From: Pseudomonadota bacterium
GTDB taxonomy: Bacteria > Pseudomonadota > Gammaproteobacteria > Burkholderiales > Burkholderiaceae_C
Reading direction: 5' to 3'
Length of the DNA stretch: 54,324 bases
Assembly: GCA_021845965.1 (NCBI GenBank)
Contig: JAJZUZ010000006.1
Span: 3,478 to 57,801 of the forward strand
Below the pieces are notes generated by a model. That model had not been told where the DNA came from, did no database searches, and was given only the letters and a program-made list of their open reading frames with translations. Positions within the stretch are counted from its first letter, which is position 1. Each line of letters starts with the position of its first letter. Made by a program: the position numbers and the translations under genes. Below are positions 16 to 46,827 of the stretch, in pieces.

Positions 16-92
16 TGGTCGGGGCGATACGATTCGAACGTACGACCCTCTGCTCCCAAAGCAGATGCGCTACCAGACTGCGCTACGCCCCG
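16..92 (-). tRNA. tRNA-Pro (anticodon TGG)
   Basis: The minus strand folds as a 77-nt tRNA. A 7-bp acceptor stem (CGGGGCG with CGCCCCG) is followed by a D-arm, an anticodon loop TTTGGGA with anticodon TGG at 56-58, and a T-arm with loop TTCGAAT. The 3' CCA is encoded in the DNA at 16-18. It decodes proline CCN codons. It lies upstream of aat in divergent orientation, with about 70 nt between them. All arms look intact. Confidence 0.97.
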
Positions 93-7971: not shown

Positions 7972-7996
7972 GTGATTCCTCTTTTCGTCGCCCTCC

Positions 7997-8018
7997 CCCG
8001 CACACGGTAATGCGCGGG
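7997..8018 (-). other. Hairpin in the ilvB-ilvH spacer
   Basis: CCCGCGCA (8018-8011) pairs with TGTGCGGG (8004-7997), 8 bp with one G-T, around a 6-nt loop. It has no T-run, so it is unlikely to terminate. It lies 26 nt before the ilvH start and could mark an RNA processing or stability site that sets the ratio of the two subunits. Confidence 0.4.
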
Positions 8019-8071
8019 CTCGGCGAACAATAGATTCGTCTTCGGTTTGTTTGAGCGGAATCGAGTGAACC

Positions 8072-43630: not shown

Positions 43631-44221
43631 TCAGCGCCGATCCACCAAGGCATGTGCAATCGTGCCCAGATCGACGTACTCCAGCTCGCTGCCGATGGGC
43701 ACGCCGCGTGCCAGCCGCGTGAACGCCACGCCGCGCGCCTTCAGCGCCTCGGCGATCACGTGCGCCGTAGCCTCGCCCTCGGCCGTGAAATTGGTGGCCA
43801 GGATGACCTCGCGCACCGCGCCGTCGCTGGCGCGCTCGAACAGCTGCCTGAGGCCGATGTCGCGCGGACCGATGCCGTCCAGCGGACTGAGCTTGCCCAT
43901 CAGGACGTAGTACAGGCCTTTGTAGGCCCCGGTGCGCTCCAGCGCCATCTGGTCGGCCGGTGTCTCCACCACACACAGCTTGCTGCTGTCGCGCGCCGGG
44001 TCCTGACAGGTCGCGCACACCTCGCTCTCGCTGAAGGTGTGACAGCGCGTGCAGTGGCGCACATTGGTGGCCGCCTCCTGCAGCGCGCGGGCCAGCAGCT
44101 GCGCGCCTTCGCGGTCATGCTGCAGCAGATGGAAGGCCATGCGCGAGGCCGACTTCACGCCCACGCCCGGCAAACGGCGCAGCGCCTGGATCAGGGCGTC
44201 GAGCGAGTGGGCGTCAGACAT
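43631..44221 (-). CDS. recR: Recombination mediator protein RecR
   Basis: RecR acts with RecO (and RecF) to load RecA on SSB-coated gaps. The 196-residue product has the N-terminal helix-hairpin-helix ([20 protein letters not shown], residues 13-32). A four-cysteine zinc finger lies near 57-72 (C-x2-C-x8-C-x2-C in [18 protein letters not shown]). The Toprim domain follows ([28 protein letters not shown], split by position, and [19 protein letters not shown] near 140). No Shine-Dalgarno is visible upstream of the ATG; a complex inverted-repeat element ends 18 nt before it. Gene order dnaX-ybaB-recR is the widely conserved cluster. Confidence 0.96.
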
Positions 44222-44239
44222 GGAAATAGGAAACGCAGC

Positions 44240-44349
44240 GCGGCGTTGCGAGCGGGCTCAGGGCAAGGCGCGGGTGTCAGGCCACCGGAACGGACTTGAG
44301 GTCCGTGAGGATGGCCTGAATGGGACCCGCAACGCCGCCATGAGCCCGC
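44240..44349 (-). other. Complex structured element between ybaB and recR
   Basis: This 110-bp element fills the ybaB-recR spacer. Complementary arms (plus coordinates): an 11-bp pair 44240-44250 with 44328-44338, a 9-bp pair 44252-44260 with 44341-44349, and a long hairpin with three stems, 44270-44275/44325-44330 (6 bp), 44277-44284/44312-44319 (8 bp) and 44290-44295/44301-44306 (6 bp). The first two pairs cross each other, and the 11-bp pair also competes with the outer stem of the hairpin. It could be a bistable mRNA structure, a small RNA, or a mobile repeat. No known family was recognised. Confidence 0.7.
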
Positions 44350-44359
44350 GCAGTAGCCG

Positions 44360-44692
44360 TCAGAAGGGGAATTTCATGCCGCCGGGGAGGCCTGGCATGC
44401 CTGCCGTCAGCTTGCCCATCTTCTCCTGGCTGGTCTCCTCGGCCTTGCGCACCGCGGCGTTGAAAGCGGCGGCCACCAGGTCCTCCAGCATGTCCTTGTC
44501 GTCGGCCAGCAGGCTGGGGTCGATGGTCACGCGCTTGACGTCGTGCTTGCAGGTCATGACGACCTTGACAAGGCCGGCACCGGACTCGCCGGTGACCTCG
44601 ATGGTGGCCAGTTCCTCCTGGGCCTTCTTCAGGTTGTCCTGCATGGCCTGGGCCTGCTTCATGAGGCCGGCAAGTTGTCCTTTGTTGAACAT
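44360..44692 (-). CDS. ybaB: YbaB/EbfC family nucleoid-associated protein
   Basis: A small dimeric DNA-binding protein of tweezer-like shape, conserved between dnaX and recR in most bacteria. The 110-residue product has the full pattern: [42 protein letters not shown] (split by position), then [36 protein letters not shown] (split), then the Gly/Met/Pro-rich tail [11 protein letters not shown]. The start ATG 44692 is 8 nt after the dnaX stop. The structured element follows 10 nt after its stop. Confidence 0.94.
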
Positions 44693-46713: not shown

Positions 46714-46807
46714 GACGGGCCTTCCCGCATGGTGAAGTGGCCAACCGGGTCAGGTGGGGAACCAAGCAGCCCTAACTATGAATCCAGTGCCGGGGTCGAG
46801 GTCCGTC
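46714..46807 (+). ncRNA. ffs: 4.5S signal recognition particle RNA (small SRP RNA)
   Basis: The RNA core of the signal recognition particle, which binds Ffh and targets nascent membrane proteins. The conserved domain IV is recognisable: GGTCAGG, an apical loop GGGGAACC, then AAGCAGCCC. The ends pair (GACGG near 46714 with CCGTC near 46807, and adjoining bases) to give the long hairpin of the short bacterial type, about 94 nt. It has its own promoter and terminator and lies between dnaX and a flavoprotein gene. The apical loop is GGGGAACC, not the usual GGAA tetraloop context, within the variation I would expect. Confidence 0.9.
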
Positions 46808-46827
46808 ACCCCAACAAGCCAGGAACG

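Follow-up and report, generated by a model that had tools for sequence, protein, structure and literature searches.

Hot et al. (2011, PMC3110155) describe the beta-proteobacterial repeat element (BRE) as a GC-rich, mostly intergenic, dispersed repeat of 75–91 bp that forms tandem arrays, is suspected of mobility and has a connection with a small RNA; its hosts in Table 2 of that paper include Polaromonas, Rhodoferax and Acidovorax. YPAL (RU-2) of Yersinia has target duplications of 3 to 26 bp and empty sites (PMC2229807). ERIC (RU-1) is an intergenic hairpin MITE. A 2006 paper on YPAL is said to have noted a preference for sites just past stop codons.

Here we analyse the spacer between ybaB and recR in a 54,324-nt stretch of DNA (the window) from a draft genome of 2,995,228 bases (G000). 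The original prediction saw crossing inverted repeats in this spacer, which it took for a bistable RNA or a mobile structured repeat. We find that a non-autonomous MITE-like repeat of about 110–150 bp, which forms one long imperfect hairpin, very probably occupies the spacer as an old and trimmed copy, in which case an apparent riboswitch turns into a mobile element. The element resembles YPAL/RU-2 in being a long-hairpin repeat with target duplications and empty sites, and ERIC/RU-1 in being an intergenic hairpin MITE with a central stem that looks similar by eye. A sequence profile gave no match to ERIC, YPAL or RU-3, so homology to these families was rejected, and the covariance model described below (R1) gave no match in an ERIC locus (L231). 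We recognised no further paper as describing the element or a stop-codon rule in the literature searched, in which subscription journals are thinly represented.

Results

The genes dnaX, ybaB and recR are read in this order from the minus strand of the window, with dnaX upstream of ybaB. The upstream neighbour of the element is ybaB/ebfC (44360–44692, minus strand; NCBIfam TIGR00103, 113 bits) and the downstream neighbour is recR (43631–44221, minus strand; NCBIfam TIGR00615, 234 bits), leaving a spacer of 138 nt on the minus strand (44222–44359). A search with cmsearch and covariance model R1 finds a whole element copy at 44229–44367 on the minus strand (95 bits, E 8e-22), the next-best match in the window having an E of 0.21; R1 was built from 37 cross-family copies, the window copy among them, and the score of this copy is therefore partly by construction. 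The bounds originally predicted, 44240–44349, mark a real element, and the conserved unit is slightly wider.

The core of the element extends from CTACTGCGC to GCTCGCAACG (CTAC...ACG; 44244–44356, minus strand) and was defined by the alignment of the 37 copies (A2) with its covariation and by the orthologous set (A4). It consists of the nested hairpin, in which the unpaired positions at the foot (TACT / NAC) and close to the tip are conserved for the most part. The terminal inverted repeat of the window copy is trimmed to 4 pairs, the long outer arms having been lost. The TGA stop codon of ybaB (44360–44362, minus strand), located by sequence reading and by orthologous filled and empty sites, adjoins the element at its outer end and lies 3 nt ahead of the CTAC. 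On the other side, a 22-nt tail connects the core to the recR ATG (44222–44243, minus strand; sequence reading and orthologous loci). No Shine–Dalgarno sequence ahead of the ATG is visible in this tail, and recR starts 18 nt past 44240, in agreement with the earlier statement that it starts 18 nt after the element and has no visible ribosome site. A single weak terminator-like match with a 5-pair stem (44247–44232) overlaps the tail, and no promoter-like site was found.

Folding energies of the spacer with its borders are −79.5 kcal/mol (z −4.32) for the plus strand and −81.2 kcal/mol (z −5.08) for the minus strand, and none of 200 dinucleotide shuffles folds as well on either strand, bearing out the claim that the inverted repeats exceed chance. 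The sequence does contain the 11-bp pair (GCGGCGTTGCG / CGCAACGCCGC) as well as the 9-bp pair (GCGGGCTCA / TGAGCCCGC), and the two cross; RNA folding confirms that the remaining arms nest into one long hairpin. These crossing arms, the orientation of the hairpin in the dnaX–ybaB–recR reading direction and a fold far stronger than that of shuffled sequences are what a two-state cis-regulatory RNA of recR would build on, in which the crossing arms switch folds and control recR translation. We consider such an RNA very unlikely on the evidence of three kinds that follows: sequence changes in the arms, related copies beside many unrelated genes, and patchy presence at the locus.

Compensatory changes separate the two folds. 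In the 37 cross-family copies, two-sided changes occur in 22 of the 29 pairs of the nested hairpin, and the covariation score is 0.522 versus 0.154 for shuffled alignments (0/500) and at most 0.109 when the structure is slid, the structure scored on A2 having itself been derived from A2. In the nine recR orthologs (A4), the nested hairpin scores 0.156 versus 0.080 shuffled (0/500); the paired changes there mostly show a 3-to-6 split, which may stem from two insertions and not from selection at the locus. In contrast, no pair of the 11-bp crossing helix is changed on both sides among the nine orthologs, and its score equals that of its shuffles. The perfect 11-bp pairing depends on a change seen, among the nine, in the window genome only (CGCAACG), the other eight reading CGCTACG (five), CGCGACG (two) and CGCTAAG (one). 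At the foot, TACT or TGCT lies unpaired opposite TAC, GAC or AAC; these bases are largely conserved across copies, as are the unpaired ones near the tip. The nested hairpin covaries and the crossing pair does not, and the crossing or bistable fold was rejected as having no support across the nine orthologs.

The repeat is dispersed. Searching the spacer against its own genome with blastn gave 17 rows at E ≤ 1, of which ten reach E ≤ 2e-6, and a full copy matches 20 of 41 relatives (own genome included) with up to 27 matches each, the outcome originally named as the mark of a dispersed repeat, with relatives at unrelated loci in the own genome and in others. The element is present in 18 of 25 genomes of the window's genus and in at least 44 of 300 genomes of its order, the own genome being counted in both. 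Matches to R1 at E ≤ 1e-6 number at least 55 in G166, at least 37 in G044 and at least 25 in G164; these and the 44 of 300 are lower bounds because at most 150 candidates were scored for the former and two per genome for the latter. A copy on a plasmid of Comamonas odontotermitis (L017) lies between the genes for a 3-hydroxyacyl-CoA dehydrogenase and a thiolase, and a plasmid search using a G067 copy gave no match.

A pattern scan with the central stem extends the range further. Among the 119 stretches listed are Polaromonas, Rhodoferax, Acidovorax, Paucibacter and Roseateles, and also Candidatus Scalindua, Chlorobaculum, a Pedobacter MAG, two Bacillus genomes and others. Eleven non-Beta loci tested score 24.9–104.6 bits with R1; conservation of the stem in the distant examples is by construction, because they were found by an exact pattern on that stem, and the Pedobacter and Spirochaetaceae cases are MAGs that could be binning errors.

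Presence at the ybaB–recR site is patchy. The recR locus was obtained for 22 of the 26 genomes of the window's genus, nine with the element, eleven without it and two (G012 and G015) in which the ybaB end was not found at the recR locus. In the nine filled loci the spacer is about 138–140 nt and recR starts with ATG; in ten empty loci 3–28 nt separate the ybaB stop from a recR GTG start (for example TGA TTC GTG), start codons and distances being read by eye, and G021 has no element by reading. The element occupies 4 of 17 loci in an Acidovorax genus, and wherever it is missing the two genes are mostly close together. On a recR tree of 36 rows, which leaves out G012, G015 and G021, presence and absence require five changes, of which well-supported branches force at least two. 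The conserved presence expected of a cis-regulatory RNA is therefore not seen (9/22 and 4/17), and this patchiness, together with the repeated changes on the tree, makes a conserved recR regulator unlikely.

Two other sites were also compared. Site 1 is filled in 2 of 14 genomes, and site 2, also in 14 genomes, is filled in three, reduced in four and empty in three, the remaining four falling outside the stretch examined. Filled, empty and internally deleted versions thus stand side by side among genomes at sites 1 and 2, and by eye several short versions could have arisen by deletion between short direct repeats in the hairpin.

Several features of MITEs are present. The unit is short, dispersed and multi-copy; empty orthologous sites exist at ybaB–recR, at sites 1 and 2 and in the Acidovorax genus; and the fuller copies carry terminal inverted repeats with arms of 17–21 bp, for example GAACTTGTGAATAAATC or CAGGCCGTTGAAAAACTACTG. 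In the CAGGCCGTTGAAAAACTACTG subfamily, 16 of 21 distinct copies are flanked by identical 4-bp sequences, as expected of target site duplications (TSDs), compared with a chance mean of 3.6 and maximum of 12 (0 of 10,000 permutations reach 16), and the left flanks of 16 of the 21 fit YTAR. This set comprises copies of G067, G044 and G164 and one of G166 in which both arms fit the pattern, identical strings being counted once. No TSD was seen at the window copy, and within the window's genus an exact 4-bp repeat at both ends is found by eye in six copies only (L019, L042, the second copy of L043, L047, L098 and L100; right arm ending CAAGTT). The combination of YTAR and a 4-bp duplication, an IS5-like target choice, may point to IS5-type transposition in this one subfamily, the family being assigned from the target alone; the CTGA of the window's genus does not fit YTAR. 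Together with the copies at unrelated loci, the patchy presence at ybaB–recR and the empty sites, the subfamily duplications support the second of the originally proposed readings, a mobile structured repeat.

No transposase with matching ends was found by arm searches in the 16 and 20 places inspected, three of the 16 being without an end and one holding a run of N. Among the matches listed, arm pairs are mostly 40–260 bp apart or occur as single ends, and two wider pairs (about 1.5 and 1.9 kb) each consist of two MITE copies. In five of the 20 places (L210, L212, L221, L223 and L224), single ends have no partner in the bases read; these could border longer or autonomous elements.

A different enzyme would be at work if the element were of the REP/BIME type and mobilised by a RAYT (HUH) protein, a reading suggested by the CTAC at both ends (GTAG on the other strand), by the unpaired GTA(G)-like motif at the hairpin foot and by the PF01797 gene in 25 of the 26 genomes of the genus. 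That gene is a single copy in 22 of the 25 carriers, however, and element-free genomes carry it too. Furthermore, six RAYT loci contain no significant element match, so that the flanking repeats expected of this system are missing, and the four loci with flanks read show repeats of another sequence. Finally, TSDs are not expected for the RAYT (HUH) mechanism, yet one subfamily of the element has them. We regard this explanation as very improbable.

RAYT-like Y1 genes were seen at L129–L134, where the flanks read carry GGGGTCAGATTCCAATTA-type repeats.

Abutment on a stop codon, as at ybaB, recurs in the window's genus. The element begins at an in-frame TGA of the upstream gene in 30 of 30 copies tested, which represent 26 independent loci by left flank; upstream of the TGA the frame stays open, and its GC at the three codon positions resembles that of coding sequence. 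Genes were called by a rule on this GC rather than by annotation, which may miss genes in less GC-rich genomes. The offset of the TGA is identical in 27 of the 30 and within 2 nt in the other three. One copy per locus was taken from the 30 loci of the genus with the usual outer arms. Left out were L001–L003 (arms missing), L012 and L033 (variant), L034 and L035 (other arms), L018 and L041 (duplicates), L011 and L013–L016 (weak matches), and short or single-ended places. Of the non-coding CTGA sites in the window, 15 of 54 are stops, as are 5 of 11 CTGAG sites; from the latter, even a share of 0.45 per site gives about 1e-9 for 26 loci, the expected share resting on rough gene calls in one window. 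Orthologous empty sites have the stop codon without the element. In other genera an in-frame stop lies at a junction, on either side, in 14 of 40 copies only, and the rule is therefore not family-wide.

This position bears on the possibility that the element is a domesticated 3′-end or intercistronic RNA, spread by transposition and then kept because the transcribed hairpin would stabilise mRNA or take part in its processing, a role proposed for REP, ERIC and YPAL. The 3′-end position and fixed orientation in all 30 copies of the window's genus, the strong covariation with largely conserved unpaired bases, the cataloguing of the Rfam relative sX9 as an sRNA gene, and a shared intercistronic place behind a co-directional gene at L034, L035 and L052 (by eye), as at L017, would all suit it. 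However, insertion into a target that includes a stop codon accounts for the position with no function involved, the element is patchily present, and copies with most of the hairpin gone persist at the same site. We judge retention for an RNA function possible but rather doubtful, and favour the trimmed MITE-like copy.

An Rfam scan of the window gave no match to the element at the gathering cut-off. Rfam and ARAGORN do place an ilvH RNA (7973–8040, minus strand), a small SRP RNA (46714–46810, plus strand) and a tRNA-Pro (16–92, minus strand) in the window. The earlier statement that no described RNA family is known at this site holds for the window copy, which reaches 14.1 bits with RF02228 (sX9) against a cut-off of 44, and fails for three related copies that pass it: L203 (60.7 bits), L065/L202 (one copy, 55.2 bits) and the second copy of L043 (49.8 bits). 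Five other relatives score 35–41 bits and the first copy of L043 scores 29.5, L036, L226 and L260 give no sX9 row, and none passed in a separate set of 20 other loci. By the alignments, the 76-nt sX9 model spans the element from its apical stem to its right outer arm. It models one half and is catalogued as a Xanthomonas sRNA gene, whereas the element is a full two-arm dispersed hairpin with, in one subfamily, target duplications. This suggests that the sX9 'sRNA' is half of a transposable hairpin.

The enterobacterial pyrH–frr intergenic repeat, presumably the RSA repeat of E. coli, is up to 83% identical to the element over the central 59 nt, and its copy in E. coli K-12 scores 47.6 bits with R1. 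The central stem is matched in this repeat in 3865 of 5426 E. coli genomes. Its outer parts are unlike those of the element. Repeats of Comamonadaceae, of enterobacteria and of phyla farther away are linked by this one central stem.

BRE is the likeliest published relative, compared by description alone, and the element may be BRE itself and hence an already published family, an identity to which we give somewhat less than an even chance. As described in PMC3110155, BRE agrees with the element in its hosts (Polaromonas, Rhodoferax and Acidovorax), its GC-richness, its mostly intergenic dispersal, its occasional tandem arrangement (as at L244) and its link to a small RNA, a likeness of descriptions and not of sequences. 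It differs in length, 75–91 bp in that source versus about 110–150 bp here, and no Bordetella is among the 119 stretches listed by the central-stem scan. The BoxC triplex motif was also considered and rejected, its consensus in PMC4666352 being a different sequence. A GTTGGGC motif in addition prompted thought of a possible attC-like nature.

Discussion

The reading we prefer, a trimmed copy of a non-autonomous MITE-like repeat, suggests the following course of events. A DDE transposase supplied in trans would move the element into a target that contains a stop codon (CTGA, CTAA, TTAG or CTAG) and is duplicated on insertion. Because the target would contain the stop and be duplicated or retained, the upstream gene would keep its stop, and insertions between close co-directional genes would therefore survive, insertions at other positions presumably being selected against. 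The fixed orientation in the window's genus would follow from the asymmetry of the CTGA target. This offers a testable reason for hairpins collecting at gene ends, namely that the target itself is a stop codon.

At ybaB–recR, the insertion would have turned a closely spaced gene pair into one split by a 138-nt hairpin. If transcribed, the hairpin probably lowers or uncouples recR translation relative to that of ybaB, or is neutral, and the related genomes with and without it form natural pairs for measuring the effect of a 138-nt intercistronic hairpin on recR expression.

A broader proposal is that the element belongs to a cross-phylum hairpin family of Beta- and Gammaproteobacteria, Chlorobi, Planctomycetes and perhaps Bacillus, that in some lineages a factor recognising the end of a translated mRNA, and not a short DNA target alone, directs its insertion to in-frame stops in a fixed orientation, and that sX9 is one half of it read as an sRNA. 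We hold this proposal, taken as a whole, to be improbable.

Further observations concern the arrangement and variation of the copies. Tandem arrays occur at G102:C5:33739-34394, with five element matches about 140 bp apart, and at L244:2739-3149 (Curvibacter sp. HBC28), with three copies 137 bp apart. In another family, several genera have the element at a common position next to the start of a divergent gene (L055, L057, L060, L066, L072 and L073), with a flank reading GCGGCTTATCCCACA; this is apparently an old site and not a stop codon. In Bacillus chungangensis (L247:84-207), a central-stem copy adjoins the start of a 16S rRNA gene as located by Rfam. Candidatus Scalindua carries AT-rich versions (L292, L300, L302, L305 and L311) in which stems are replaced, CCTTG and ATCCTCACGTAC...GTACGTTCCGG (the latter being the search pattern) are kept, and long arms like GTGTTTGAAC are present. 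Longer or altered variants (L033, L101, L012 and L206) have a left arm that contains a further inner hairpin, which looks like the insertion of modules, and reach about 204 bp in L101 and 236 bp in L206.
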